Assembly (NCBI RefSeq): GCF_019649055.1
Contig: NW_026570241.1
Coordinates: 1,192,501 to 1,256,500 of the forward strand
Direction of reading: 5' to 3'
Source: Paramacrobiotus metropolitanus
Taxonomy: Eukaryota; Tardigrada; Eutardigrada; Parachela; Macrobiotidae
Length of the DNA: 64,000 bases
Numbering within the stretch: the first letter of the stretch is position 1; the number at the start of each line of letters is the position of its first letter. Shown piece after piece: positions 4,841-62,300 of the stretch. A program made the position numbers and the translations under genes. Under the pieces are notes generated by a model. It worked only from the letters and a program-made list of their open reading frames with translations, was not told the DNA's origin and made no database searches.

Positions 4841-4945
4841 TCTCACTAATTTAAGCAGCATTAATTAACACATGCTAAGAGCATAACCTGCACTTTGTCT
4901 AAATAAACATTACTGTGTAGATTGGATCAATTCCGACAATACGTA

Positions 4946-5212
4946 CAAGCCCGTTTTCAAACCCGTAGACCGCTGTAAGCGGGATATTTGAAAAACGTGG
5001 GCTTGAGCCATTCAAGGTGCTTCGGCACGTCACGGCGTATTGGTCATTAACGCCACTGCGGTGTGAGGGGTGTGTGAGAGAGACAAGTATGAGATAGACT
5101 GACTGCTCTACGCCAATGCATCCAGTGTCGAGTAGATAAAATCTAGCCTTTAACTGTGCGCTTATTCACTGCGTCGCGCTTACAGCGGTCTACAGGCTTG
5201 AAAACGGGCTTG
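4946..5212. repeat. 267-bp MITE with TA target duplication
   Basis: The left end CAAGCCCGTTTTCAAACC... and right end ...CTTGAAAACGGGCTTG are inverted repeats over about 37 bp, with few mismatches (GTAGACCGCTGTAAGCG is shared). Both ends are flanked by TA (4944-4945 and 5213-5214). TA flanks and these termini suggest mobilisation by a Tc1/mariner-type transposase. There is no internal ORF. Confidence 0.88.
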
Positions 5213-5214
5213 TA

Positions 5215-6569
5215 CTTACAGCATACTGTACTGAACGAACCGCTAGCTGTGCTGTTTACCGTACTTGATCCTATGATACAATCATATTAGGAACAAAGAT
5301 AAAAATAGTTATACAGTATCATTCGCAGCTTTAGCCGATTAATCCAAACTATCCTTCTCGGACATCTCCAAATTTCGACTGATGTTTCCTAAATATTTCA
5401 GTACTTTATACAAAACGATAAAGCTATTATAATTTAGTAATATGCAACTTGGCAGCCGCAAATGCCACTGGGCGAAAAACTTTGCAACGAATAAAAACAG
5501 CATTCGGAATCTACGTACTTCCGGTCTTGTCAGTTTTTAGTATGTGCTAGTCAAAGCATTCACTGAATGTATTCGGCTTCAACTTTACATCCCTTTAAAG
5601 GCACTATGGCACTTTCTGAAATTGTTCGGTACGTCAACTTGATGGGTCATAAAGGTCAGTTTCTTCGAACTTTCAATAAACGCATGCACAAAAAAATTGC
5701 GAACTTTTGCGGACTCTGGGTTACAGCGGTAAAAGCTACACTCTGTACGTCCCATGCTAGTCACATTAGCGTGTCAGCTATAACTTACTAGCTGATATGC
5801 AGACAAAACGTTTTTAGTTTTCGATTTCTTTACTTTCGTAATTTTTTTTCGTGTAACCCACCAATAGCGATCATTCACTGCGCACAATCCATCATACTTT
5901 TCCTCTATGTCCTTCATTCCACTCTCCATCCCTTCAAGTTCACTGACCCTTGCAATGCCACCTTGACCGGCACCGCTGCCTGCTCGCGTGACCAAACAAC
6001 AAGGAGAAACCAGGCGAAAATAAGCCCGGAAATTCAGAATCCGACAAAGTGTTCGAGGGAAATATTGTACAATACATGCTGCAATTACAGTATTTAGCAA
6101 AAAACAGGGTAGTAAAGTTTAGTGGTTTATAGACTACCGCAATTTAAAGGCATAACTGGAGCCCGGAGGCACTCGCAAAAAAGAAACAACTTGAAACATG
6201 ATGATTTTCCCATCAAATAAATCAAGTTCGTATATGGCAGCAGTTGCCTGCTAGGTGCGTTTTCACTTTTCACCACCATTATACGAGTACACAGCCAAGC
6301 CTATGCGTTTCTCTTTGCTACTTTTACAATAACACTCTTCTTTTATTATTCACAAATATTGTATAACAGGGAGAATGAACTTCGTATTATGGTTAAATTA
6401 TAATAAACCATTCAAGACGTTGCTGGGCCGAAGGGCAAAAATGCTGGGCCGACGTTGCTGGGCATAAATTTTTGTACAAATAAATAGAAAAAAAGCAGAC
6501 ATAAAGAAGGGATTTAATGTCACCGGACAGCGGGTGCATAAAAACGTCATTTGTGCATATTATTACATG
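5215..6569. other. Intergenic, no gene recognised
   Basis: A minus-strand open frame of about 108 codons at 5774-6100 contains an acidic stretch and NDRYWWVT but no family signature or splice context, so I do not call it a gene. Near 6424-6470 the phrase TGCTGGGC recurs three times. Confidence 0.4.
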
Positions 6570-31200: not shown

Positions 31201-34200
31201 AGTAGAAGATCTATACTACGCGCGGCGCCCCATAGTTTCCAGATCTTAATAATCAAATCGATTTTTTTTTAAAAACTGAAAACGCCAGTTGATTGGCCTC
31301 GGTCCAGAACTGGCTCACATGATGTTCGTTTTTAAATTCGTTCGACCAGAATCGTGCCGGCACGACGCCGCAAGCGATCCAACCCACTTTCAAGGTGATC
31401 TTGGGACATAGAAAAAATTTGCCTAGATACAATACAAAATACCAATTGACATAATTATTACACTAATTAAACCGAAAAATAAATAAATTATTGTGCTTAT
31501 TCAAACACTCGCGTTATTCAAACACTGCTGCCGGTGTTGCCGAGCTCGAAACACGTTTAAAATCAACCGATATAAAATGTAAAAATATCAAATATAAAAT
31601 CAATACGAAAAATCACTGGACGAGTGAGTGACCGAAACACTATCACCGACCACTGAGCGGAATCTCTAGATGAGCGGGTGACCGAGCTACTACCACTGAC
31701 CAGTAAGAAAAATCACTAAACAAGTGAGTGACCGAAACACCATAACTGCCCACTGAGCGGAATTTCTAGGTGAGTGAGTCACTGAGCGGGCTTTGCTCTT
31801 GCTCACCTAACAGGCTCTGTGCACTGGACAGTAGTTGTAGCAGGGTCACTTCCTCACCTAGCGATTTTTCTTACTGGACAGGTGGAGCTCGGTCAGTCAC
31901 TCACCTAGTGATTGAGTGCGTCAAAAAATCGCTAGTGAGTAGGTGACCGAGCTACCACTACTGTCCAGTGCACAGAGCCCGTTAGGTGAACGCGTGACCG
32001 AGCTACCACTACTGTCCAGTGCACGAACTCCGTTAAGTGATCTAGTGACCGAGTTACCACTACTGTCCAGTGCATAGATCCCGTTAGGTAGATGGGTGAC
32101 CGAGCTACCAATGCTATCCAGTGCACAGAGCCCGTTAAGTGACGTATGACCAAAATGCAATATTACTGAGCAAAATAGAACAAGGCCCGCTAAGTTCTTA
32201 GTGGGTGACCTATCTAGCACCATTGTCCAGTCTTAGCGTCCTTTTTGGTTTTTAATGTAGTACTATCGTGGGTGATTAATTCGGATGGTTTTTCGCTACG
32301 AAAATTTAACAAAAATGATCTGTAAAGTCAAAGTAACTGCGTTCGACTGCACGAAACCAGAACATCCATTTTTTTATAAAATTTTTGTTATCGGGCTCTT
32401 CGGATTTATCCGTTCTAAGTTAACAATCCGCAAACCGGCCTAGGAGTTTAGAACCCAAGAAACGCGGAGGCGAAGCCGAGGCTGTTTCTTGTAGATATAT
32501 ATTACGCAGGTATATATCACATTTATGTTATCGTTAATACGAGTATACATGCATAATATACTCACAATTTTGCCCTCTTTGAGCGATCCACTGGAATATG
32601 TTACGGCCATGGTGGACGCACAGATCTCCCCGTAGATAGGAAAATGTCCCCGTTCCGTGGTGCTGCCGACGCTGAGGGTGAAGATATTAGAGGCGTACCC
32701 GTCGTACGCGCAACTATCGCCGTTAATTCCTCCGTTGCCGGACGCCCAAATATACAGAACTCCCTTTCCTTGGCGACCCTAATTAGTTTTTGCAAGCAAT
32801 TTATTCTAATTTCAGATACAGTTAATTTTAGCTGAAATAATATATAGATATGACAATTTCGGGAACAGCTGTAATTAATCGGTATGAATGTACACCGTAA
32901 ATTCGACACTTTAATTAAAGATATAACAATTGTAATATTTCATCGATCTTAAAAAGAAAAAAATTTCTTATAAATACAGACTACTTTTTTAATCACTAAT
33001 GTCTTGCGACGTTATGCATTCAATACAATCATGTAGTGTGAATGAGCAGCCAAACCAATGTGCGTCTGGGTGTATGCTTGTAGGCACCGTACTACACCAA
33101 CTTTAAATCTTTCTCGACTCTCAAGTCAACGCCGCTGCATACGAAAGATGTACCTTACTGTTTTGCTTTTAGTTCCTAGTTCAAACCGTCATCGCTTTCC
33201 TTGCTTGTAAGCGACCCAAATCTAATTGGGAAAGTACTTATATGCGACAAAATAAAATAATGTGAGAGTTGTACCAATAATAATTATTGATTTCTGTAAA
33301 TGATCCGCTGCAGAATGGGTAGTACGCGCAGAGTAAACGCTAAGCACCGCGCACGGAAAAATGCATTGGTTTAATATGGTTGTTATATTTACGAATGACA
33401 GTCTATAACGTACGCGTACCTCTCTTCTACCCGTAGAATTTAAAATACAAATGGCTGGATTCTGCTATCGTTTTCACCTCGGTGACACCTTTTTCGAAGG
33501 CCCTAGACGCCATCAGACCCGGTCCCTCCACGGTCTTCCCGTCATCGCTCGGTCCCCAGGATGAGCTGTAAATGTGGATGTAGTTGTTGTTGAAGGAGAA
33601 CGCCTCGCCCTCCACCCGGTCGGTGACAATGCCGTCCAACATCCGGATACCGCCGATGCGGGCGTTGTAGGCGATGCCCACGCCGCAAATGTTGTTGTTA
33701 GCCTGCATGGCCACTTCTCCCGCACATCTAAACACATCGACCGGTTGCTCCACCTTAACTTCAAACCCCATGTTCTTAGCATAAAAATACAAATTATGCT
33801 AAACTATGCATACTAATTGCATTTGGCCAGGTTGCAATGACAGTCGTCAGTTTTAAGCAAAATAAGATTCTCGTTTATAAATGTTGCTGTAGAGTCTGTA
33901 GATACCACGGATTTATGAAGGTGACCTTTCTACGTACCGCGTTCCGTGATGGGTGTCCTCGGGATTGTCGTAGCGCGGCGATGGATCCCGGTCATTGCCG
34001 TTGATATCTGTGCTTGCATCTGGATCCTACCAGATTTTAATACAACCAGTAAGTATACAATACATCAACGGAGATTTGTTCACGAGTAAGACAGAGCGTA
34101 CAAGTCACGAGTAAGACAGAGCGGAAACTTGAATATCCACTATTGCGATATTTGTAAATTCGTAATCTCATGCAGCACCAATCGGCAGCTTTTTGCAAAA

Positions 34201-40755: not shown

Positions 40756-41188
40756 GGATTTGTGTCGAACCCTTTAGTCAAAGCACAACATACTTCAACG
40801 ACACGGAAGCGACTGATTAAAAAGCGTTGACTGCAACGCTAACCGGCTTGATATGTGGTGATTCCAATCCAAAACTTAGCAGGTATATGAAAGTTGCAAG
40901 GTGTTTAACTGCAGGCAATACTCACTATACCTACATAACAATGAACCGGCTTTCCCTCTTTCGATTTCACTTTGGACAAAGGGCGTTCACCGCTGAGAAG
41001 CACACCGAGCACACCTGAATTGTCGCAGCGCAGCGATTTCACTGATTTTATATTATGTTTGTACTTCGCATGCGTTTCATATTTTGCGTTATGTGTCTGT
41101 TTGAAGAGTGCTCATAAAAAATGATGCTGAGTCAACATTTTGCACAGCCGCCACATTTACTGTGTTAATAACCGCATTTTCCATAACT

Positions 41189-42107
41189 ATGAGGAGAAAG
41201 CTTTTACGTTGTGTTAGAAGTTCCAGAATTCCTCTACTCTTATCCATTAGCTGTTCATTTCTCGTTCTTCGATCCGTTAGTAACACTCCACAAAATGATT
41301 ACACGGAGTTTGAAGAGCGCCCAGAAACTGCTCCAAAAGCGATATACAGGCGTAGTTATACACGGGCTACGATGCGGGAATTTAAGAACGGATACAACAC
41401 TACTTTCTTCGAATTAAACCGCAACGTTTCCTCGTGCAACGTATCGGAAACATTGCCCCTGCCTTATGAATCTCCATCATGGACGCAGATTTTAGATACT
41501 ATTCATGTATATTCCGCGCATTTTAAAGGGAAATACTTTCATTTTATTGCGCTTGTGGATGTGAACAATGACGCATTCGTCAACGAGACATCGTGCGAAT
41601 GCAGATTCAAGACGTTCTTCAGATCGACTGTTCGAGTGCAGAATACGCGGTACGATAACAACAGGGAGCGGTTTCGTAGTGTGCGGTTAGTGTGTCGAGC
41701 TCCCGCTGCGTGGTCCATCGACGCCGTGGAATTGGTTTGTCAGAATAGGAATTCCTGTGGAAAATTAAGCTACCAGTTGCCGAAAGAGCACAACCGTAAA
41801 ACAAAGCGATTATCGTTTGCGCTTTGTGGACCTATTCTGTGGGGCAACGTTTCACCGAAGCTCCTGGTGGAGTTTATTGAGTACTATACGCACATTGGAA
41901 TACGACATTTTGTCTTCTACAACAACCGAGCCAGCGAAATGACATTAAAGATTTTAAAGCACTATACGTCAGCGAATACACATCTAATGACGATTCTTCC
42001 CTGGGAACTGACAGTGTCCAGTGATTCCGTTAACTATTTTGGACAACTGTCGGCGGTCAATGACTGCACGGAGCGGACTAAAGGACACTGGGATTACACA
42101 CTTTTTG
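41189..42107 (+). CDS. GT92 (DUF23) glycosyltransferase, 3'-truncated
   Basis: From the in-frame ATG at 41189 a type II protein starts with a basic tip and signal anchor (IPLLLSISCSFLVL). It runs through a stem to the GT92 core: CGPILWGN, LLVEFIEYYTHIGIRHFVFY, ILPWEL, YFGQLSAVNDC. The frame meets a good donor (TTTTTG|GTAAGA) just after the segment where GT92 enzymes have their aspartate-containing DxD site, so the catalytic metal site should be in the next exon. I find no such exon downstream; instead the repeat copy at 42.77-43.2 kb follows. Unspliced, the frame ends at 42175. Enzymes of this family add galactose in glycan synthesis in the Golgi. As seen, this copy lacks its active-site half and may be a gene fragment. 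Confidence 0.75.
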
Positions 42108-42769
42108 GTAAGAAAAAAGAAATGATAATGAACATTAAGCATTATCTTTTCCAAATTTGTAGAAGTAAAGCATAATGTTCAAATATAGACAATGCCTGTA
42201 GAATATAATGTTAGTATGTTCAGAATACGGTATAATGTTTTTTATGCTTTGTAAAATAAGATTTGCGTAATAATAGTGTTAGAATTTATATTATGAGATT
42301 ATTATAGTCACGGGAACAGAAACCGGAAGCGTCACACACACTGGTGTCAGTTCTCTTGTTGTTCTGTTCAACAATGTTATACAAGCTGGTTGCTTATATA
42401 GCACACGGTACATTCATGATATTAGTAAGTTACTGCACCTAAACATCTGATAAACAAGGGGATTGGTGACCTGGGTGCACCGTACACTCATAGATCAGCT
42501 AGTAAGACAATGGTCATAGTTCACAAGTAGATGACACATTATGAGTGTTTATTATATTGGCAATATAATTTCTAACAAATAGCCTTTATTCTTTACTTTA
42601 ATCTCACAGTTTGCGACACATTCTTGATAAGAATATTATCCGTGTTATGAAGTAGAGCAATGTGGTTTCAAACACATAAAATGTTCATTCAATGTAATAT
42701 CTTTTCTATTACGTTTTCTAAAAATTTCTGTAATAGTGACCTTTGAAAATTTGTAGCTGATCTCGATGA

Positions 42770-43199: not shown

Positions 43200-44241
43200 T
43201 GCTAGCATAGTTTCTATGCAGCGTACGGTTATGCACTTTGGACATGAGACGAAGAAGCAGCTAAAAGTGTACTCCTTGTCAAACGCTGCGACGATTTTTG
43301 CATGTACAGTTTAGTAAGAATAATAATTATGGATACGTTATAAATTATCGGATCAATTTCCAAATGTGTGCTTGCGATTCGTACTGTATGTGACGACCAT
43401 ATGTAACCAACGAATAAAGCTAACATCACTATAGTACAGTGCCCGATAATCTATTGTGTTTAGTACAACTGAAACTGTTTTCCTGAACTACACATGAAAC
43501 AATCTGTCAGTGGTTTTTCAGAAATTTCCGCGTACATACAAGTACAACCGCATTTAGAAGCTCGTGCAGCCTCCGGGAGCCAACATTTTGCAGCCGTACA
43601 ATACTTGCGGATGAGCGCCATTCACCATTGAGTATGAACTGTGCCGGTGCGGTGACGAACCGAATTTTACGAGTACATGCACTGCTTAAGTGGACGAAGA
43701 CGTTACGTTACCCATTATTTTAATCATTGCCATTGTTACCGTTTTTCCGTAGAGAATGCTTCGGTTTACTGACTATAAAATTCGATCTTGCTTTTACAGT
43801 TTTACTCGATTGACAAAACGGATAGCTTAACTGCTGAAAATTCACAATCCGGCGCACACTTGAAGACGGTACTGTATCGACATAAAAATATAATAGAAAA
43901 CTCAAGAATATGTTATTACAACTTTCAAACATCCTTCCTAATCAGCTAATAAACTCATTCGAACCCAACTGACGAAAAATCCAGCAACAGGAATTGTTAT
44001 TAAAAACATAAACAGTTAGGCCATTTCAGGATAAACTGAGGACTTTCCGTAGACATGTTTATTATTACTGTATTCACGCTAGTCGCTGTTCCTCATAGTC
44101 ATAACTGTACATCCAAATTCGCTGTCTCACTGATCACCCAGAATCCAAGAGGAAATTTGAACAATTCGGAAGACCATCTTGTCACTTCATCGTTTACTCG
44201 TGCCACATTTTCCACATATAAACCCACATTTCGAAATGTAT
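43200..44241. other. Intergenic, no gene recognised
   Basis: AT-rich stretch between the dispersed repeat and the 3' end of the BTB-BACK-MATH gene. The short ORFs show no motifs. Confidence 0.4.
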
Positions 44242-45757
44242 TCATTCGGTTCCAACCGGAAGACCAGCAGTCACTTGAATTTCTAATCTCAAGGAGAAGT
44301 CGGCAGGGTTGACGTAGCCTTTCGCCGGATCCAGTAATTCCTGGAAATACAAAATACACTTGAACGAACGCGTAAACAATGATCTGGCCCTTTCACCCAC
44401 GGAACCATAAGAAACCCTCACTTCCATAGAGATATACTCCGAGCATCCCCAGTAACGATTATCCTTGTCAAACACTGAGGACATGTCTACAAAATGTACA
44501 AAAACCTGGCCAACATCCGGTGTTTTTTTCTGGCGTCACAATAACCACGTACGCAAACTATCTGGTGCAGTTTCCGTTTTCCAAGGTAACAGGCGCAGCT
44601 CTGCATGGACCTGGCACGTCCAGGAAACCCACCGGGGACAGCCCGAACACCGCAGGTAGAAGCTCAGATTAGCCGACTCGTCTCTGGTTTTTTTCGAAAC
44701 TGCGATACTCCTGCAAAAAGCGATTCATGTTTATTCAATGGCGTCAGGTTCTCGACCACGCTGTCAAATAATTGGTGTTAATCTCTTTTCATTACGGCGG
44801 CCGTCTTACCACAGTAGCTTTCTAATTGTTATGGGATCGCTGTACGTACGAGCTTTCTGCAGCTCCCTGATATCCGGAATCGTATATTTAATAACACCTT
44901 CAGCGCGTACATCTGCAGATATACAATATATACAGTACAGTTACCAAACAATTTCCACAGCATGCATACAACTTTTTATAAGCGCATGACATGCGCTTAC
45001 TTTGTCTGGGCTCCGTATGGAAAGGCAAAGGCGGCTTGATGGCGGCGTACTTGTAATGGTAAATGTCCAATAGTTCCGATTGCGATAACAATCCACTCTA
45101 AACCAACCATACAATAACGCGTATGCTTTAGCAGTACATGTTTGGTCTTTACGACGTATAATATACTATACGTCAAGTTTTAGAAGACGTGCTCACAGTG
45201 GAAAACTGCATCTGATTGGGAGCACAGAGAAAACCACGACTGCGACGCCGATTGGCGGCGGACGCTTGATGTTTCTTTGCGTGCAGAAGTTTGCAGCCCA
45301 CCTGCCAAAAAACGAGCCAATAAAAGACAGTTACAACGAGCTGCAGATGTGCACAGGTAGAAGAGAACAACAAAATTTTCTTACTTATCCACAGACGAAC
45401 AGATGGTGTCTTCGTTGGCAGTCAGTGTATCCCGTTGGAGAATGGTACACAGCTCCTCTAGTCCAATCCCATCGAGCTGCGCCGATTCCAAGACGGTTTT
45501 CGTTGATTCGTCAATCAGACACAAACACTTCTCCAGGATACTTGGCGCTGCGGCTGCATAGTGAAACGCCTAGGCAACACATTTCCCAGGAAACGAGAAA
45601 CACCTCAGTTGTAGCATAACCCCAAGAAGACCTCCATTCAGTGCGTTTTCCAGAACAAGCAGGCAGTTGTTGGCGTTGAGCGTGTCCATGACAAAGTCGG
45701 TACACATCGCTGCCAGCAACGGTAAATCATACTTGTCAGCGCACTTTAACGATGTAT

Positions 45758-46963
45758 TCAAGAAACGCCGACATGGGTTTTTGGGGCATATGGCCAGCCT
45801 CGGCTCGGCCGCGGAGTCTCGTGGAAAACGTCAGAACATGCTCGGCCACCGGAAGGAGCGTATACGTGAAATAGCGAGCAGTGCCACCTGGTCCGTGGCC
45901 AGGTGACCCCTGATTCGTGGCCAGGGGTCGAAGGCACCTGATTCGTGGCCAGGTGATACCCTGATTCGTGGCCAGGGAGTGAGCTGGATCCTGATACGTG
46001 GCCAGGATGTTGCGGCTGCCTTCCGGTGCGGTTCTGTGCGTACCATAGCGAGAGAGCGGCGCGAGTGAGGGGAGCCCCAAACAAGAATGGTACGCGCAGA
46101 CGTTGCGGGCGGATGTAACGCTTAAACGAGGACGATTTCCACCGTCCTCGTTCACATATGGCGTCAGCTGATAGGCCATCGGCGGCTGCCGAAGTGGCGC
46201 CGCCAATTCGAAAAGAATGGGATGAATAGCGGGCGCGGTCCTCCCCATCAGGAAGGGTCGTCTTCAGTGCCCGTGTAAGGTCAATCCGCGTGAGGAAGCG
46301 GCCGCTGCTATGGATAAAAAATGGCAAATCAGAAGGCTGTCGATTCTGACGCTGCTGGGCATAGGTGACACAGGCGTTGTAGATGATTGGAGCTTCGCTA
46401 GCTGTCAAAGACAGCGTAGCTCCCTTCCTGTGCTGGTCTGTTTTAGACTGCTTGATGGAAAGCTGCAGCATAGAGTCGTTCCATCGCACGTCCTGGAGCA
46501 GGAGGGTGGCAGACATCTCAAACGTTGTCGGTGATGGCGATGTCAGTTCCGACACTCGCAGCAGGAAATGATGAGCCATCGTAAAAGCGGCCCAAATCAT
46601 CTGTTGGTCGTATTGTGTGGGGAAGGTTAGATGTAATCGGCTTGGAAGGCGTCCCAGTAACTGAGAAGTGACCGGAAGTCGTTGATCCGGTTGCGTTCCA
46701 GTCAGTCGGCGGGCGCCTGCCACAATCTGCTTCAGTCTGGGGTTGGCTGTCGGATCGGCCAATTTCTGCGATATGTGACGTCTGGCGACAGCGGCTACAT
46801 ACACATTTATAGTTGACGATGACGACTTCCGGTTGAACAAGTATGCCACATAATCTTCGACAGTTTCCGGAGTGGCGGGCCATGGTTGTTTCACTACTGA
46901 TCTGCAAAACTGCTCGAAACTTCGCTCTCCATTTGCGTAAACTCTTCGGGTAGAAGTAGCCAC
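45758..46963 (-). CDS. Tyrosine recombinase of the DIRS-group element
   Basis: An open frame of about 400 codons without an ATG at its head (it opens at GTG) overlaps the end of the RT frame by 70 nt, so it is probably expressed by frameshift or internal start. After a core-binding region (FEQFCRSVVKQPWPATPETV), the catalytic set is present: arginine in LLRVSELT, histidine and arginine in HSFRIGGATSAAADG, then GRWKSSSFKRYIRP with the nucleophilic tyrosine. The enzyme would integrate the circular cDNA. About 110 codons beyond the tyrosine are low-complexity and overlie the hairpin array at 45885-46008, where all frames tend to be open. Confidence 0.9.
   Translation of the reverse strand: MATSTRRVYANGERSFEQFCRSVVKQPWPATPETVEDYVAYLFNRKSSSSTINVYVAAVARRHISQKLADPTANPRLKQIVAGARRLTGTQPDQRLPVTSQLLGRLPSRLHLTFPTQYDQQMIWAAFTMAHHFLLRVSELTSPSPTTFEMSATLLLQDVRWNDSMLQLSIKQSKTDQHRKGATLSLTASEAPIIYNACVTYAQQRQNRQPSDLPFFIHSSGRFLTRIDLTRALKTTLPDGEDRARYSSHSFRIGGATSAAADGLSADAICERGRWKSSSFKRYIRPQRLRVPFLFGAPLTRAALSLWYAQNRTGRQPQHPGHVSGSSSLPGHESGYHLATNQVPSTPGHESGVTWPRTRWHCSLFHVYAPSGGRACSDVFHETPRPSRGWPYAPKTHVGVS
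45885..46008. repeat. Array of five hairpins with a constant loop and varying stems
   Basis: Five units lie at 45885-45905, 45907-45927, 45935-45955, 45959-45977 and 45988-46008. Each has the form stem-CCTG, loop ATTCGTGG or one-base variants, then CCAGG-stem. Outer pairs differ but stay complementary: CACCTG/CAGGTG, CCCCTG/CAGGGG, CCCTG/CAGGG and ATCCTG/CAGGAT; the first has a 7-bp stem CACCTGG/CCAGGTG. They are 22-29 bp apart. They sit in the 3' third of the recombinase frame, toward the element's right end. Confidence 0.85.
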
Positions 46964-48861
46964 TCCGGCGGCGAAAAGGGCGCCGGCGTCGAGGTTGTTA
47001 TGGCAGGCTCCTTTCCGGTGAGGAATGGTTTCAGCCGTGTAAGCAGATCCGGTACCGACATACCGTCGGCGTTCGCTGAAGGATGGAGCTGACGAAAACG
47101 TTGCAACTGGAATCGAGACAATGCATCAGCAATGCTATTATCAACGCCAGCGATGTGCGTAATTCTGATAATAAAATTAAACCGCGCCGTAACAAAGTGA
47201 ATTCTGCGTATGAGCTCCATCACTGCTGGGTTCCTACAACTGCCAGATGACCATGTATGAGCTGTCGCTGTATTATCGCAATGAAAAAGCACTCGTTTTC
47301 CGTACAGCTGTTCATTCCAGATAACGCACGCTACATAGATTGGGTACATTTCCAGAAACGTTATCGGTGGGTTTACTTTTAACAGCCAACCCGGCCACGC
47401 GCCCTGGAACCACTCATTACCCAGCGTGCCTCCAAAACCTATCGCGCCTGCCGCGTCAGTGTACAGATGAAATACGCTCGCCGGTAACCATTCTGGTTGT
47501 ACAAAGCCGGCCGTCCCGTTCCATGCCGGTAAGAACTCTCTCCACCACGCAACATCACGACGGAATCCGTCCGTCAGTGTAATTCTGTGATACAGCCGAT
47601 TCACCTTGCAGCTCAGCTGGATCATGCGTCTCAGAAATATTCGACTGGCCGGTATACATTTCGTCACAAATGACAGCTTACCAATTAAGCTCAAGAGTTC
47701 CCGTTTTGTGCATTGCGTACTTGTGGAAAAGCTTTCGAGTAACTCTGTTAATTCTGTTAAACGAGCGGCCGATACAGATAAGGTAAAGGTTTCACTGTTG
47801 ATCTCTATACCGAGAAATTCAATTACCGTAGCCGGACCCACCAACTTTTTCTCATTGATCGGAACACCCAAATACTTACACACTGACTGAACCTGCATTA
47901 CTAACCGCCCACATGCCGAACTTGCTGCTTTATCGCACATGAAAAAATCGTCCAAAAAATGTAGAAACGTATCACTTCCGGTACACTTTTTGAATATCCA
48001 CTCGAGCATGCGGGCAAAGGTGTCGAACAAATACGGGCCTGAACGTAAACCGAACGGGACTACTACATCGTGGTAAAACTGCCCTTCCCATTCGTATCCC
48101 AGCAAATGCCAATCGCTCTGCCTGACTGGTAAATTACGAAATGCGTTCTCAATGTCTACTTTTGCCATTAACGATCCCCGCCCATGGAACATCACCATTT
48201 TAACTGCATCATCTACGCCTACGTAAGTTAGCGAATACTTATCTTTTGGAATAAAATCATTCACGCTCAGTCCGAATGGTTGCGACAAATCCATAATCAC
48301 TCGATGGCCTGACGGTCGCTTTGGGCGCAGCCCAAGTGGATTCACAACAAAATTCGGATGTGGCTGCACTTTAAAAGGACCCCTTGCGTGATCGGCTTGC
48401 ACCTCCTTTATGATCATTGCGGTGATGACCTGTGGATCATGGAGTGCCGAACGTGCGTTTGCGGTAAACCGGCGTACTTGTGGGCCGTTATATCCGATTG
48501 CAAAGCCAAACCTGAAACCCTGCAATAGAAAACACACAGCCTCACGGTCATCATGCTCTACCAGTAATTCAGCGAGTCTCTCGTCGAAAACGGGCGTCGC
48601 CACCTCCGGCCTTGGCGTTAGTACTACTGGCAGGCTTATGCTGCGTTGAATCGTGCTCGTGGACGGTGTGGTCGGCCGCCCTGCATGTTCCACACAAGTG
48701 CTTGAAGCGGCAGTTCGAACCGTTGGTGCATCGCCCGTTGTTCCAGTTCCTGCACAAGTCTGGCGGGATGTGTCGAAAGGGCCGATCCCCCTTGGCGTCT
48801 TTCTGTCCGTGTGCAGTGACCTGGAGCTTTTTCGGGCAGTCCTGATCCGTATGGTCCGCAA
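46894..48861 (-). CDS. Reverse transcriptase-RNase H of the DIRS-group element
   Basis: A 655-codon frame overlaps gag by 293 nt and opens at TTG with no early ATG, so it is probably made by frameshifting from gag. RT motifs: VVNPLGLRPKRPSGHRVIMD, MAKVDIENAFRNLPV (first catalytic Asp), VPFGLRSGPYLF, and HFLDDFFM as the catalytic box. RNase H follows with FHLYTDAAGAIGFGG, FLEMYPIYVA, LFHCDNTATAHTWSSG and IADALSRF, giving the D-E-D-D set. The IADALSRF ending is typical of DIRS/Ngaro polyproteins. No methyltransferase or integrase follows. The frame is uninterrupted. Confidence 0.92.
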   Translation of the reverse strand: MRTIRIRTARKSSRSLHTDRKTPRGIGPFDTSRQTCAGTGTTGDAPTVRTAASSTCVEHAGRPTTPSTSTIQRSISLPVVLTPRPEVATPVFDERLAELLVEHDDREAVCFLLQGFRFGFAIGYNGPQVRRFTANARSALHDPQVITAMIIKEVQADHARGPFKVQPHPNFVVNPLGLRPKRPSGHRVIMDLSQPFGLSVNDFIPKDKYSLTYVGVDDAVKMVMFHGRGSLMAKVDIENAFRNLPVRQSDWHLLGYEWEGQFYHDVVVPFGLRSGPYLFDTFARMLEWIFKKCTGSDTFLHFLDDFFMCDKAASSACGRLVMQVQSVCKYLGVPINEKKLVGPATVIEFLGIEINSETFTLSVSAARLTELTELLESFSTSTQCTKRELLSLIGKLSFVTKCIPASRIFLRRMIQLSCKVNRLYHRITLTDGFRRDVAWWREFLPAWNGTAGFVQPEWLPASVFHLYTDAAGAIGFGGTLGNEWFQGAWPGWLLKVNPPITFLEMYPIYVACVIWNEQLYGKRVLFHCDNTATAHTWSSGSCRNPAVMELIRRIHFVTARFNFIIRITHIAGVDNSIADALSRFQLQRFRQLHPSANADGMSVPDLLTRLKPFLTGKEPAITTSTPAPFSPPEWLLLPEEFTQMESEVSSSFADQ

Positions 48862-49729
48862 TGCTGCAGTCGCGACATAATGGCAGATGAGCGCGAAGCG
48901 GATGCCGGGCTATACAGCGGTCCAGCAAGTTTCGATCCAGCAGGTTCCACTGATCATGGTTAGTGACATCACGGATGCGGCAGGCACGAAAAGTCTTATC
49001 ATACTCCAACCACACTGGCGGCAGGTAGACACCTGCCATTTCAGTCATAATCGTATGGTAAGAATCGAGCGGTTGCTGAAGAGCGGGATAGTAATAACTG
49101 CGCACACGGCGAAACACAATAAATGCCTCGTTCCACAGAGTGAATGAAGTAATCGTAATCTTCTTCGGCTTTGAATCAGAAAGAATAAAGTTTCCATCCC
49201 TAATCTCGAATTTAGCTTCCCCCTGAATAGGCGACATGATGGTATTTGCTCTAAGCAGTTTATCTAAGTCAACGTTCACCGTAAGATCGTACAGTTCTTC
49301 AAGACATTTCTCACTGACAATTGGGAACCCAGCCGGCAACGGTGGCGGTTTCTTACTGTTACTCGCTCCGGTGCTGGTAGGTGGCGTCGCCTGGGCCTCG
49401 TTGACCTTCTGAGTGAGTTGGGCCAGCTGATTCTGCTGATTCATCATGAGCTGAAGCAGCATAGTCGTTTCCGTCGGTGGTGGCTGTGGAGGCTGTGGTG
49501 GTGGTGCCTCCGATGTCGACAAGATAGGGAGGACGTCCGCATCCTTCTGCGCTAACAACGACTGCAAATGCTGCCTTGCCATGGCAATCTGCGAGTCCAG
49601 ATCTCCCGTGCTTCCACCAGTTGCCGTCGGACGGGTAACAGGGTTCGCGCGCGCACGCGGACGGCCGCGAGCTGGCCGTGTCGCAGGCGGTCCCGGCGCA
49701 TTGGATCTTCTACCTCGCCGTCCAGTCAT
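48569..49729 (-). CDS. Gag-like protein of the DIRS-group element
   Basis: From ATG at 49729 the frame encodes 386 residues. It has a basic RG/RP-rich start (GRRGRRSNAPGPP, RGRPRARANP), then a glutamine- and proline-rich linker, then a folded middle. Near the C-terminus is the CCCH-type zinc finger CRNWNNGRCTNGSNCRFKH followed by CGTCRAADH, the form seen in gag proteins of DIRS and Ngaro elements, where it should bind the element's RNA. An earlier cysteine set, LPLCRDCSIADHTDQDC, may be a second finger. The end overlaps the RT frame. Confidence 0.85.
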   Translation of the reverse strand: MTGRRGRRSNAPGPPATRPARGRPRARANPVTRPTATGGSTGDLDSQIAMARQHLQSLLAQKDADVLPILSTSEAPPPQPPQPPPTETTMLLQLMMNQQNQLAQLTQKVNEAQATPPTSTGASNSKKPPPLPAGFPIVSEKCLEELYDLTVNVDLDKLLRANTIMSPIQGEAKFEIRDGNFILSDSKPKKITITSFTLWNEAFIVFRRVRSYYYPALQQPLDSYHTIMTEMAGVYLPPVWLEYDKTFRACRIRDVTNHDQWNLLDRNLLDRCIARHPLRAHLPLCRDCSIADHTDQDCPKKLQVTAHGQKDAKGDRPFRHIPPDLCRNWNNGRCTNGSNCRFKHLCGTCRAADHTVHEHDSTQHKPASSTNAKAGGGDARFRRETR

Positions 49730-50407
49730 GCTTAATGTGAAAACACAATGCTGACAACAAACAAACTAACAGGAAATTGCAAACGTTAACTTTCAATGAT
49801 CAACATCCAATTCTGACACACACGAAAAGTGAGGATAACAGGCAAAAAACTCGCACATGCCGAAAAACACCAATGCGATAAATACAACTAGGCCAGCATG
49901 AGATAGAACTGACGGTTAGGTAGTCCGTAGGCAAAAAGGCAGTTTGCACACCGTCCGCAAACAGGAAAGGCAGGCGATTCGCTGGCACACATGCTGGTGC
50001 TACATTCCAGGAAGGAGGAGAAAATGCATCCGTCGGTTCGCTCAAAGTCCGGCGGCTAATCTTTAATGTCCTGTGCAGAAAGAGAGTAGCTCTTGCCGGC
50101 GTTTCTCTCGCATCGTTAAAACAAGTTAGCGATTAAACGCTAACTTCAATTAACGTGTGAAAGACGTTGTCTGTGGGTGAAATTCGTCACCACGTCCGTG
50201 TACATGTACTGCTGAAGAGTTTTATCGTGTTGCATGTACAATACACTGTACAACATACAACGGTACGTCAAGCACCAGACCCACCTAAGCATATTAGCGA
50301 AAGCAGCAGGAAGAATGTCCGGGATATTGATGGGAATCGTGCAGTTCTCCGGTACACTTCCAAAGAACATCGCCCGGAACACTGCACTGCGGACACTCAT
50401 GATCAAC

Positions 50408-51821
50408 CTGCATAAAGTCACTGGTCAAATTAATCATGGAAGGACTAGACTAAACAGTTTGGTAAAACCGTAGATTTTCGATGGTAAGGTGTCAGAGACT
50501 CAAAACATCGTGTCCGTCGTCGGTGTCGGTATCTTGACGTATCTCACCTGTGAGCTGGAAAGATCTCCGTTGCGCCAAAATCACGTCACGTTCTCGGAGT
50601 TTGAGGATTGCGTTGGTGCTTCAGACATGACAGCGATTGGTGCAGGAGAAGAAGGCTAGAAAGCCTGGCTACTCCATTCGCAAGTATCTCGTACTCGTGG
50701 CATTATCAACCTTGACTTCAACACGCAACAAGAAGAGTTTTTCGCTATTCGGACGTGCATTAATGATGTCTGACTTATATAATGGACGATCTTATGCAAA
50801 AGCGGAAAACAAACAGAGTGGCGCAGAATATTTATGTGGTAAACATCAAGAAAACTTGAAAACCTACATATATTTTACTCTTATTTAGTCCCGTTCTTCA
50901 ATATGGCATTAAATGCACACGAGCGGCTGTCTTCATAACCGGTTACTTAGTCTACTGCACAATACAAAGTACAGATTCAAGCTTTGAATCCGGTACCGGT
51001 ACAGAATCAAGCTTTAATTTCGAAAAACCGAATTTTTTAGCATGATGCACATTATGCCATACAACGCAACCAAATCGTTGTATCGTCGTTGTCTTGTTCC
51101 GAATTTGCACGGTGGCGTCTTCGTTTCCGTTGTTTGTTTGGTGATTGGTTCAGGCAGAAAACGTCACCCGATTGCTTGAAGTCGACATTTTCGCCATACG
51201 AGCTGCTCGATTTCGATCACGTGGCTGGAAACCCTTTTGGAAACTCTCTTTCAGTGTGTTGCGGTAGTCTTCGTTCACGGCAAAGAAGAACACCTAAAAA
51301 TTTTAAACTCAATGTCACTGATCACAAATTACTTAAACGCTAGAAAGTAGAAACTAAGTAACACCGGCAAGCGCATTATTTATTCTCAGTAACAGCGTAA
51401 AACCCTGGACAAACTGGACCGTATCCGTTAAACCGCAACCATCATCTAAAAATACCGAGATTGAGAAAACAGGCCAGTTCAAATGAACACCCACGTACGG
51501 CTGGTGGGATACTTCGTGCCGTGTTGGCAATGCAAAATGCAGTGAACCATGGACAGAAGGTCGAGTTTGGCCATATTAATCTAGCTCTACAGAAGGATAT
51601 TCAGCCAAGTGTGCTCAGGTTTTGAAAAAAAATCTTCTTTGGTCGCCGCAAAAACTTTAATTGCATTTAACAATTTTTATTAAACGTTTATGGCTACATT
51701 CTTCTGAAAAGTCGGTTTATAAAAAATTTCTTATAAGCTGAATATTCTGGCTGAATAACCTCTCTACCTATTAATTTTTTTATTTATTGTCAACGTTCGG
51801 GTTCCACTTACTGCGGTTGCC
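50408..51821. other. Upstream region of the BTB-BACK-MATH gene, first exons unresolved
   Basis: The BTB domain needs an N-terminal exon above 50407. A minus-strand ATG at about 50629 (MSEAPTQSSN) leads to a donor at about 50545, but its frame hits TGA and the phases do not fit, so I do not call it. Nothing else is recognised. Confidence 0.35.
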
Positions 51822-53767: not shown

Positions 53768-54195
53768 AATGTCCAAGTTAGGACATTAGTGCCTTACTGG
53801 TTCTAGGGATATGAAACCACCATAAAACCTCCATATAACCGCCATAGAACCACAATGGAACCACGTGCAAAGTCACAAGCCGGCATGCTCCCATACTAGC
53901 CCTCTTCTCTGGCGCCCATAGAACCACATAGAACCTCCATAGAACCACCATAGAACCGTTCTATGGTGGTTGTATGGAGGTTCTATGGTTGTTCTTTGTG
54001 GTTCTATGGGCGCTAGAAAAGGGGGCTAGTATGGTAGCATGTCGGCTTGTGATTCTGCACGTGGTTCCATTGTGGTTCTATGGTGGTTCTATGGGTTCTA
54101 TTGTGGTTCACTGTGGTTCTAGGTGTTCAGTTGCTTATGTCCTAGTCTGTTGGTTTAATCCCCATAGAACCACTTAATGTCCTAACTTGGACATT
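53768..54195. repeat. 428-bp foldback element with 21-bp perfect ends
   Basis: The first 21 bases (AATGTCCAAGTTAGGACATT, then A) and the last 21 are exact reverse complements. Each end is itself a 7-bp inverted repeat, AATGTCC/GGACATT. Inside, long arms made of imperfect copies of CCATAGAACCACNATGGAACC and CATACTAGCCC fold back around a centre near 53958 (GAACCGTTCTATGG). No ORF is credible, and no target duplication is clear in the flanks. Confidence 0.88.
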
Positions 54196-59319: not shown

Positions 59320-62300
59320 ATGAAGATGGTTTCTTTTGCCTGGTTTTCCATCCTTGCTGTTATGGTGAATGCCGGTCCATTGCTTAATCAGTCGGAGCGA
59401 AAGCTGCTGGATCGCCCTATTGTCAATGTTCGGTTGATCGTAGCCGGCATTACCACCACAAACGAGGGTTTTGTCGCTCTGCCATATACTGCACCTGCGC
59501 TATCTTTGGCTGTTGAGCGAGTTCACAAGGTGTACAACGGAACAATAAACTTCAGTACCGAATATATTCGTGATCGGAATTGTGCCAGCCTTACCGGAAG
59601 TGTTGTCGCATCGTCAGCCGATATTTATTATCGTAAAGGAAGCGGACACGATATTACGGTGTCGATTTTGCCAGGTGGGACCCTGCAGTGTTATAAGTCG
59701 GCGTGACTGCTCGAGCTACGACATGCAAATTACCGGTATTGCAGGGTGCGGCGAAATCGGTGACGATTTGGAGTTATCTCGTCTTTCTGTCGAGTGGGAC
59801 ACCTTATGGATTTCAACGTAGGTACTTGTAATTCACGCTTGACGGTAACAAAATTTAATAAGGCATAAACTTTATGTTTTTCAGAGCAGGAGCCAGCCCA
59901 CCTACGCGTCCACTTCGTTTTTCTTACCCAACGGGAATAACAACCAACGTTTTTTCACTGTCCGATGGCGTTGAAATTTTTCTTGATATTTTGAAAAGAT
60001 ACAACTGGACATCTATAAGTGTAATAATCGACTTAAATTCCCCTCCTTTCTATGCGGTTTTGGGATCGGCATTCGTGGGGAATTTGAAGAGCAACAGACA
60101 CATAAGGTATACTGCGTGGAACATTCGCACCAAATTAGGTTCTCCGTATGGTGGCTTTGAGTCGATTCTGAAGGAGGTCCATGCCACAAGCAGAGGTGAG
60201 AAAGCGTCATTTGACCGTTCGCTTTTCGCTTATAGACTGTTGGATCTGTGTACTTTCAGTTGTGCTGTACTTTGGGCTGGGCCCGGCTTTACGGGAATTT
60301 CTGGTAATTAATATTAATCATGTCTGCAAATATTTTTGCTTACCGCAGTTTGAAATCTGAAGAAGTGTTTCCACAGTTCACTGCTTCATCATTGGAGATG
60401 ACGAATGGCGAATATGTAAATCTTTTGTCACAAGTTTTGTGTGTCTTAAATTCCTGGTATCCAGATCTGCTGACTGAAACATGCATGTCGCTGCAGGTTT
60501 ACGTTTTGGTTGAAAACAATCTTTTTCGTCCAATACATTGGCAAGTGGGAGATAAAGACGATTCGGTGAGCGAGAATTTGATCGCATCTGTACTACGAGG
60601 CCAATGTCAAAAAGAGGAAGGGATAATTAAAGGAAGGAATGTTTTTTGGTCAAAAAGAGGAAGGAATAAATAAAGGAAGGAATGTTTTTGGTCAAAAAGA
60701 GGAAGGAAATTTTGATGGTAAAAAAAGGAAGGAAATTTTTGCGGTCAAAAAGGCAGGAGATTCCGATGGTCCAAAACAAGAGGAATAATGCGCTAAAAAA
60801 ATTTTTCAAAAGTTTTGGACCTGAACGTGATGGTCTGAACCTTTTAAAACACAAGTAAATGAAGTACGTAATGCATTAAGCGGTACAGCTAAACATATTA
60901 AAAGGAAAAACAATTCTATTTAATCAACATAAATACGGAGTACAGTGCGATCTAGGTAATGCGCTTTGAAGTGTTGAATTATGCAGAGCCTGAATCAGCC
61001 TTTTGGTCAAAGAATAACCATCAGTGGCGGTTGCCTCTGATGTCTCACCGGGCAGTTCCACATTCAAAAAATGACTGAAAAATCAAAAAAATGAAGCATG
61101 GCATGGTGGAAATAAACATTTAATCAACAACATAATATCTGAATAAGACTAGAATAATACTAATAATACTCAGCATATGATGATAGAATTGCTAGAATTA
61201 CTAACTAATATAGGTGTACAGTACTATAATTATTACTTTACTAATTAGTGACGTTGTTAACATTATTGTTAATTACTGTTGTAATGTACGGAGCCTGGAT
61301 ATACAACTCTGCTTAATACCGCTTCTTACACTGCAAAATGTGGCGCTCTAATGAGCTTATACGAGAATATGTACATGCTTTCACAAACCGTTCTGTAGTC
61401 CCAGTACCGGCAGCTTTTGAAATTAGAAACAGATTTTAGATAGTATTTAAGAAAGATGCAGCCTGCAATGAGTGCAATCGTGCATTCAGTGTTCTTCGCT
61501 ACCCCAAAAAAGATTTCCAAAAACCGTTATGCTATTTTTGCTTCTAGTTATGCACGTTTGAGTTTTTCGCCACACAAGAAATTTCCTTCCTTTTTTGACC
61601 ATCCGCATTTTACCTCTTTCTCACCCAAAAAACGATTTCTTCCTTTAATTATTCCTTCCTCTTTTTGGCCAAAAATAATTCCTTACTTTATTTATTCCTT
61701 CCTCTTTTTGACCAAAAATCATTCCTTCATTTATTTATTCCTTCCTCTTTTTTGACCTTGGCCTACTACGGCCACGTTTATTCATCGCGCTAGATATCCT
61801 AAATAGAAAACAAATATTGTCCCTTTTTACTGCGAATCGTCGGACGGTCCTGTATTATAGAAAACTATTGATAGCGCTAGTTGTACCGCAGTCTGGGCAA
61901 GCATGGAGTTGCTTAATTCTGTCGTCTACGATTTACAATAAGAGTTACGGTTGATTGCGGTAAGAGGCAGTATTTACATACGCTGGCAATCTTCTTATCT
62001 AGATTATTCTACAAGCTTTCCGTTCCATTCTGTTAATCAATCCAACTGAAAAAAACAACGACAGCTTTGCAAAAATGCAGCTTGGAGCAGAAATTCTTCG
62101 GCGAACTGAAAAAGATTTCAATTTCACCTATCCTCTATCTAACCAGGTTGGTTGATCATTCTCATCGTCAGATAACCGTACCGTATGAGGTATCGTAAAT
62201 ACAGTCTGTATACAATCTCAAAATACAGCCCGAATTTACATTAATTTATTATTTTATTTGCAGCCGTACATTCTTATCGCCAGCGGATATACAACTATTC

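Follow-up and report, generated by a model that had tools for sequence, protein, structure and literature searches.

The closest described relatives of the structure reported here are packaging signals of RNA viruses. In the MHV packaging signal an invariant apical loop is carried on covarying stems. SL5, a branched domain with repeated UUYYGU loops, is a proposed signal whose testing has not been systematic and whose activity in one particle system was minimal, and some deltacoronaviruses have five stems with a repetitive loop motif that is unproven as a signal (PMC12911879, accessible part). GACG tetraloops take part in alpha- and gammaretroviral packaging (PMC516450, accessible part). For retrotransposons that encode a tyrosine recombinase, the Ngaro layout is defined in section 7 of PMC4157794. 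Packaging has been tied to a Gag zinc motif with no RNA signal named in PMC6681497, the accessible part of which mentions no hairpin, stem-loop or secondary structure.

Literature searches on DIRS, Ngaro and tyrosine-recombinase retrotransposons, with subscription journals mostly uncovered, returned no such array in the titles and visible abstract starts listed. Among the matches listed for Paramacrobiotus metropolitanus, no title or visible abstract start dealt with its transposons. We know of no answer to the question of how the RNA of a DIRS-order retrotransposon is selected for reverse transcription. Two recognition systems are useful for comparison. Retroviral GACG tetraloops are read by a zinc-knuckle Gag and lie in the 5′ leader. 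Integron integrases, which are tyrosine recombinases, bind folded single-stranded attC sites through their shape.

Here we describe an array of hairpins in a retrotransposon of the eutardigrade P. metropolitanus, found in a window of 64,000 nt (the whole stretch of DNA that was analysed) and followed through the other copies in the genome. The hairpin is short, has a fixed loop, occurs in up to five copies and persists in derivatives of the element that are poor in genes; it constitutes a defined RNA candidate.

A hairpin array in the B repeat of a Ngaro-like element

The array occupies positions 45885-46008 of the window. A pattern search of the window with CCTGATTCGTGGCCAGG, allowing up to three mismatches, recovered five units, all on the plus strand, at 45887-46006; 0.07 matches are expected by chance and none of 100 shuffles held five, which bears out the five tandem hairpins of the preliminary description. 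All five point in the same direction. On the plus strand the stems are CACCTG/CAGGTG in units 1 and 3, CCCCTG/CAGGGG in unit 2 and ATCCTG/CAGGAT in unit 5. Unit 4 has a stem of only 5 bp (CCCTG/CAGGG) with A against A at the next position, so the initial statement that the outer stem bases always pair is accurate for four units and slightly too strong for the array. The loop, first described as fixed, is indeed shared, with deviations in unit 1 (GTCCGTGGC) and unit 5 (ATACGTGGC).

Read in the sense of the element, which lies on the minus strand, the structure begins with a 5′ closing arm at 46019-46028 (CACCGGAAGG). Then come hairpin 1 (45988-46008; AUCCUG/CAGGAU, loop GCCACGUAU), hairpin 2 (45959-45977; CCCUG/CAGGG, 5 bp, loop GCCACGAAU), hairpin 3 (45935-45955; CACCUG/CAGGUG, also with loop GCCACGAAU), hairpin 4 (45907-45927; CCCCUG/CAGGGG, which can extend to 8 bp) and hairpin 5 (45885-45905; CACCUG/CAGGUG, loop GCCACGGAC). 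A 3′ closing arm at 45847-45856 (CCUUCCGGUG) completes it.

The surrounding element, delimited by blastn against the copy on contig C34, spans 45746-50155 on the minus strand and is a Ngaro-like tyrosine-recombinase retrotransposon of the single-B form (A1 - gag - RT - YR - B). Its 5′ end is the A1 repeat (49767-50155), 97.4% identical to A2 of the C34 copy. All three open reading frames share this strand: gag (48569-49729, 386 aa), with the motifs C-X2-C-X4-H-X4-C, a CCCH finger and C-X2-C-X4-H-X4-H and a zf-CCCH match; the reverse transcriptase (46894-48861, 655 aa; RVT_1, E 3.7e-12); and the tyrosine recombinase (45758-46963), whose Phage_integrase match over residues 153-284 (E 0.0014) lies below the cut-off. 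Some relatives of the recombinase are named xerD-like integrase/recombinase. Its conserved part stops near 46110 (RYIRP) and the frame continues through the array. The B repeat (45746-46070, minus strand), which matches both B1 and B2 of the C34 copy, holds the whole array just 3′ of the recombinase and about 140 nt from the 3′ end of the element, close to the right end as originally noted.

Fuller copies reveal the repeat layout. In the C19 copy, A1 (777-1192) and A2 (5265-5680) are 100% identical and B1 (4941-5269) and B2 (5767-6095) 99.4% identical, forming split direct repeats of which the inner pair follows the recombinase; the order B1-A2-B2 was read in the C34 copy. Thus the Ngaro traits of a reverse transcriptase and a tyrosine recombinase on one element, and of split direct repeats with the internal ones 3′ of the recombinase, are present, the latter in the C19 and C34 copies. 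No methyltransferase matched the three frames at a maximum E of 5, a search that a divergent domain could escape. The absence of a methyltransferase match from the reverse transcriptase frame, together with internal repeats placed after the recombinase, gives the Ngaro layout, and we class the element by layout and domain content as Ngaro-like rather than DIRS1 or PAT. PAT (Pat1) is characterized by a methyltransferase domain, not found here within the sensitivity just stated, and by a Gag zinc finger, which is present but not exclusive to PAT. The label "DIRS-type element" given at the outset is therefore correct for the DIRS order but not for the layout.

The window copy contains no repeat pair, its A2-B2 being absent, and there is no inverted repeat of at least 20 nt at 44000-51500 of the window. 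It runs from A1 to B without A2-B2 and has CGTTAA, the sequence at which the element ends, at both of its own ends. Near these ends lie the two halves of a recombination-site-like inverted repeat, both on the minus strand: the left half at the B end (45762-45772, sense GTCGGCGTTTC) and the right half near the A1 end (50095-50105, sense GAAACGCCGGC). The copy looks like the product of recombination between the two B-end sites, or like an integrated one-junction circle. At the B/A junction of the C19 and C34 copies lies a composite inverted repeat whose arms are GCCGGCGTTTC and GAAACGCCGGC; a motif search located it in other copies as well. In one such junction (L052, sense ~365-447) the outer arms GTCGGCGTTTC/GAAACGCCGGC enclose a middle pair, CATCGTTAA/TTAACGATG, and an inner palindrome, AAGTTAGCG...CGCTAACTT. 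The junction repeat looks like the crossover site. Because AATAAA (C19) or ATTAAA (C34) stands just ahead of B2, the RNA of the element may end early in B2 and would then hold the array once, from B1.

Other structured or coding features were observed elsewhere in the window. At 53811-54129, tandem repeats of about 11 bp resembling CCATAGAAC are followed by their reverse complement, GTTCTATGG, as an inverted array pair. Tandem repeats of 43 bp (GTCAAAAAGAGGAAGG...) at 60606-60776 and 61628-61757 likewise occur with their reverse complement, about 1 kb apart, and two adjoining arrays at 31611-32142 have units of about 50 bp with GTGACCGA. An open reading frame at 41108-42175 encodes a glycosyltransferase of family 92 (PF01697, E 7.5e-16).

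Covariation, strand and the outer domain

The consensus of the unit in sense is NNCCUG-GCCACGNAY-CAGGNN. Its exact 17-mer occurs at 89 places in the 170 Mb genome and its reversed control at none; a looser pattern, TGRTNCGTGGCCA, occurs at 205 places, compared with 24 for the control. The exact matches form 56 clusters (55 plus the window), and arrays were read in 41. From 192 matches at up to four mismatches, 165 units were counted (96 distinct 41-mers), the 27 left out comprising 15 that scored below 13/17, six that scored 13 and six other-strand reads of a unit. Two isolated matches outside arrays, identical to each other, are included in the pair counts on 96 units and were dropped before the alignment of 68.

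Among the 96 distinct units, pairs 1-4 (CCUG/CAGG) are nearly invariant. Pair 5, mostly A-U, C-G or U-A, is paired in 84 and pair 6 in 85, where the make-up of the columns predicts 43% and 54%. Pairs 7, 8, 9 and 10 are paired in 32, 40, 21 and 46 of the 96 units; this is near the 37, 39, 28 and 38% expected, and thus the covarying stem ends at pair 6. For 68 distinct 25-mers, 94.3% of cells are paired compared with 83.2% in shuffles, and structures slid along the alignment reach at most 57.1%. The covariation score is 0.332 versus 0.134, with none of 500 shuffles as high, a comparison in which kinship alone can place related sequences above all shuffles without any structure. For this reason a test on 26 units of seven arrays was added, these being hand-chosen, less decayed arrays, two of them for the epsilon subfamily. 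Pair 5 is paired in 26/26 units and pair 6 in 24/26, none of 20,000 shuffles being as high, and pairs 7 and 8 are at chance.

About five stem types recur, with CA, TC, CC, AT or AC ahead of CCUG. They recur by descent, so that independent double changes are few. One is unit 4 of the five-unit arrays, which has CC in the alpha and TC in the beta subfamily, if the positions correspond. Unpaired substitutions, named in the preliminary description as the observation that would count against folding, do occur: the two outer pairs are broken in 10 and 9 of the 68 distinct units. Several of these units are fusions of two units through deletion. The paired changes nevertheless exceed chance, and the idea that they reflect selected folding, put forward from the window alone, is well supported by the alignments of other copies.

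The two ends of the nine-base loop segment form G.U in 51, A-U in nine and G-C in seven of the 68 distinct units and are unpaired in one. Hence a standard RNA pair is possible in sense in 67/68, a figure to be read with the expectation of only about one A.C combination. Because the 51 G.U closings would read A.C on the other strand, the closing pairs appear to favour the sense strand, as RNA or as plus-strand DNA. In the 26-unit set the closing pair is no better than shuffled, and folding energy gives no preference for sense, the antisense hairpins folding about as well or better. Units within any one array share their orientation. A resemblance of the plus strand (TTCG) to a T-arm or B-box does not extend to the invariant bases of those motifs and was set aside.

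An outer inverted repeat encloses the hairpins. In 37/43 segments, the 43 including two isolated matches that are not arrays (L036 and L048), CACCGGAAGG stands ahead of the first hairpin and a second arm, CCTTCCGGTG or its delta-subfamily counterpart CTTCCCGGTG, follows the last one, each with at most two changes. A segment holds one to five units with the loop kept, and one subfamily has a single standard hairpin. The closing-arm sequence ACCGGAAG is ETS-like, which we take to be a resemblance only. Folding of the array alone is modestly better than that of shuffles (z -1.85 sense, -2.00 antisense). The window domain with its arms, taken as sense RNA, is predicted to form the outer helix and four of the five hairpins (z -2.78, 3/200 shuffles as good). 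The closing arms do not covary in the within-subfamily alignments and therefore might function as DNA as well. The alpha alignment has no compensatory change among 50 predicted pairs, and some alpha units were paired with each other by RNAalifold instead.

Within subfamilies, substituted columns number 6/115 in the core stem, 3/80 in the closing arms, 6/57 in the outer pairs, 19/127 in the loop and 61/337 in the spacers; the loop, in a figure that includes the free N, varies almost as often as the spacers. The hairpin of the single-hairpin subfamily is identical in 9/9 segments, its spacers varying and containing indels. Directly after this hairpin there is a second one with a larger loop (CCTGG...CCAGG; L036, ~5234-5278, sense), which changes little among copies.

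Distribution of the array among copies

The array was compared with a list of at least 131 recombinase matches (130 of 390 candidates scored), using the exact 17-mer clusters and one place of the looser pattern, drawn from the first 100 places listed. Twenty listed matches have at least 51% identity and reach the C-terminal part, six N-terminal matches being left out. An array lies within 1.5 kb downstream in 19/20, at up to 300 nt in 18 of these and at 750 nt in the other (C53). The lone exception, C121, is truncated, with no unit in the 541 nt read below it. Among the matches listed with less than 51% identity, the highest at 43%, none of 105 has an array. On the strength of 19/20 versus 0/105 listed matches, the array marks one clade. 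The absence of the units from most intact copies, which the preliminary description had named as evidence against its reading, is not what we see. Gag shows a similar break in identity, from at least 46% to at most 37%; since this is the clade that the array marks as well, finding Gag and array together does not amount to an independent test. The zinc motifs of Gag are intact in most of eight aligned copies, the defects being one cysteine lost in L041, a first part out of frame in L045 and a stop in L042.

Three stretches downstream of recombinases of distant clades were also read (L071, L072 and L073). In L071 a perfect hairpin of 6 bp with a 7-nt loop, GGCACC-GGCGGAG-GGTGCC, lies just after the recombinase, with a repeat copy about 446 bp further on. 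Its 19-mer has 10 exact places (contigs C7, C9, C31, C54, C68 and C73 among them), with none for the control, and adjoins five distant recombinases (C9, C13, C31, C54 and C73). We treat it as a lead only, since a stretch as long as this should, by estimate, contain about one hairpin of the kind by chance. A wider pattern search was noisy (312 places versus 196 for the control), and L072 and L073 contain other inverted repeats but no unit of the L071 type.

Several derivatives of the clade have lost genes and carry arrays, decayed in C6 and C15. The C81 derivative (L065) has a Gag match ending about 230 nt before B1, which leaves no room for reverse transcriptase and recombinase, and B1, A2 and B2 come next. 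C8 (L042) consists of A, Gag and B with no reverse transcriptase or recombinase match and keeps its array. C15 (L047) has A, a partial Gag and B, with the reverse transcriptase and recombinase of another element beyond on the opposite strand. A copy at 141 kb of C13 has Gag and reverse transcriptase, no recombinase match and four units. Finally, A-B copies of about 0.8-0.9 kb, in which none of the three genes was found, occur on C9, C13 (188.7 kb), C21 (1.05 Mb) and C6 (1.1 Mb) and are comparable to solo LTRs (L043 5174-6078, L046 5305-6078, L050 5380-6172 and L040 5301-6143, sense). In C81, B1 and B2 share 99.7% identity, so that this derivative looks recently mobile, and both contain a fused unit in which pair 5 is broken. 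For this reason single hairpins seem expendable.

Candidate functions and known systems

In our preferred reading each unit would fold in the sense transcript into a fixed inner stem, CCUG/CAGG, extended by two pairs of free identity and capped by a seven-base loop, CCACGNA, closed by a G.U, A-U or G-C pair. An outer helix (CACCGGAAGG/CCUUCCGGUG) would enclose one to five such hairpins. The RNA would thus present several copies of one loop and could form a multivalent binding site. Its likeliest partner would be the Gag of the element itself, with two zinc knuckles around a CCCH finger, and Gag binding would lead to packaging of the RNA into the particle where cDNA is made. We propose tentatively, as a reading with a substantial chance of being right, that the array is a cis-acting multivalent RNA-recognition domain through which Gag marks the RNA for packaging. 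The proposal is made by analogy with retroviral and coronaviral repeated-loop signals, and both traits of such signals, a shared loop on several hairpins and covarying stems, are present. The derivatives that have Gag without reverse transcriptase or recombinase and keep the array (C81, C8) count in favour of packaging by Gag.

The covariation and the evidence for sense-strand RNA apply equally to an RNA element in the 3′ untranslated part, with additive sites for a host RNA-binding protein controlling export, stability or translation. In the C19 copy the recombinase frame meets a stop immediately ahead of the array, and the number of units ranges from one to five with the loop kept, as additive sites predict. 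However, no Rfam family matches (two matches, both far below gathering scores, lie outside the array), and we know of no host factor with this loop; such a role is conceivable but unlikely. The C19 stop bears also on the idea of a coding repeat, in which the array would supply the recombinase with a repetitive C-terminal tail. The window frame passes through the array and in one subfamily a public gene model (P0004) reaches into it, but single-base indels distinguish close copies and change the frame within the array, the public model of the C19 copy likewise ends at the stop, and arrays or remnants persist in Gag-only and A-B copies. Because of the indels inside the array and the stop before it, we consider that the array is not kept for coding and give the coding explanation almost no credence.

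Position invites explanations at the level of DNA. The array lies in B, near its end and near the composite inverted repeat of the B/A junction, as might be expected of recombinase sites in folded single-stranded cDNA, bound in the manner of attC, or of accessory arms next to the site of crossover. If shape were recognized and not stem sequence, covarying arms would be permitted, and the single-stranded DNA of either strand could fold. Against this, a separate junction repeat is already crossover-like, Gag-only derivatives keep the array without encoding a recombinase (which they could use in trans), and G.U predominates at the closing pair of the sense strand. Exchange at the array itself is seen only as deletions from unit to unit, and the element ends some 140 nt away at CGTTAA. 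We regard recombinase sites as improbable, and hold out little hope for the specific case of a eukaryotic tyrosine recombinase that would read single-stranded DNA hairpins through loop and shape, attC-like outside bacteria, in cis on cDNA before or during circle formation. An aid to reverse transcription, in which the array would help a template jump or cDNA circularisation between B repeats, is similarly doubtful: with AATAAA or ATTAAA ahead of B2 the RNA may end early in B2, which would then be restored from the array-bearing B1, but single-B and A-B copies are uninformative here and we know of no template jump that needs repeated identical loops. It is very unlikely that the units are mutational palindromes that arose without selection, slippage copying the tandem units and template switching inside the hairpin maintaining the complementarity of their stems. 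Template switching can write both arms of a hairpin at once, and the deletions between units indicate a recombining array. Such an origin, however, leaves unexplained why pairing stops at pair 6 and why loop and core stem recur across subfamilies, and core stems change less than spacers.

Compared with the Ngaro group as described, the element differs by its hairpin array, the main text of PMC4157794 containing none of the terms hairpin, stem, palindrom or secondary structure. Integron attC sites belong to bacterial cassettes and have extrahelical bases, and strand exchange inside the hairpins is not seen here. With GACG-tetraloop packaging regions the array shares hairpins with a common loop in the RNA of a retroelement (PMC516450, accessible part); it differs in the size and sequence of the loop and in lying 3′ of the recombinase with up to five units. 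Unlike coronavirus signals, it is found in a retrotransposon, has the loop CCACGNA where MHV repeats a bulge, and is a sequence for which we infer packaging; like the MHV/Embecovirus signal and SL5, it combines several units, an invariant apical loop, covarying stems and a variable number of units (PMC12911879, accessible part). If packaging by Gag is its function, the array would play in a transposon the part that repeated-loop packaging signals play in RNA viruses.
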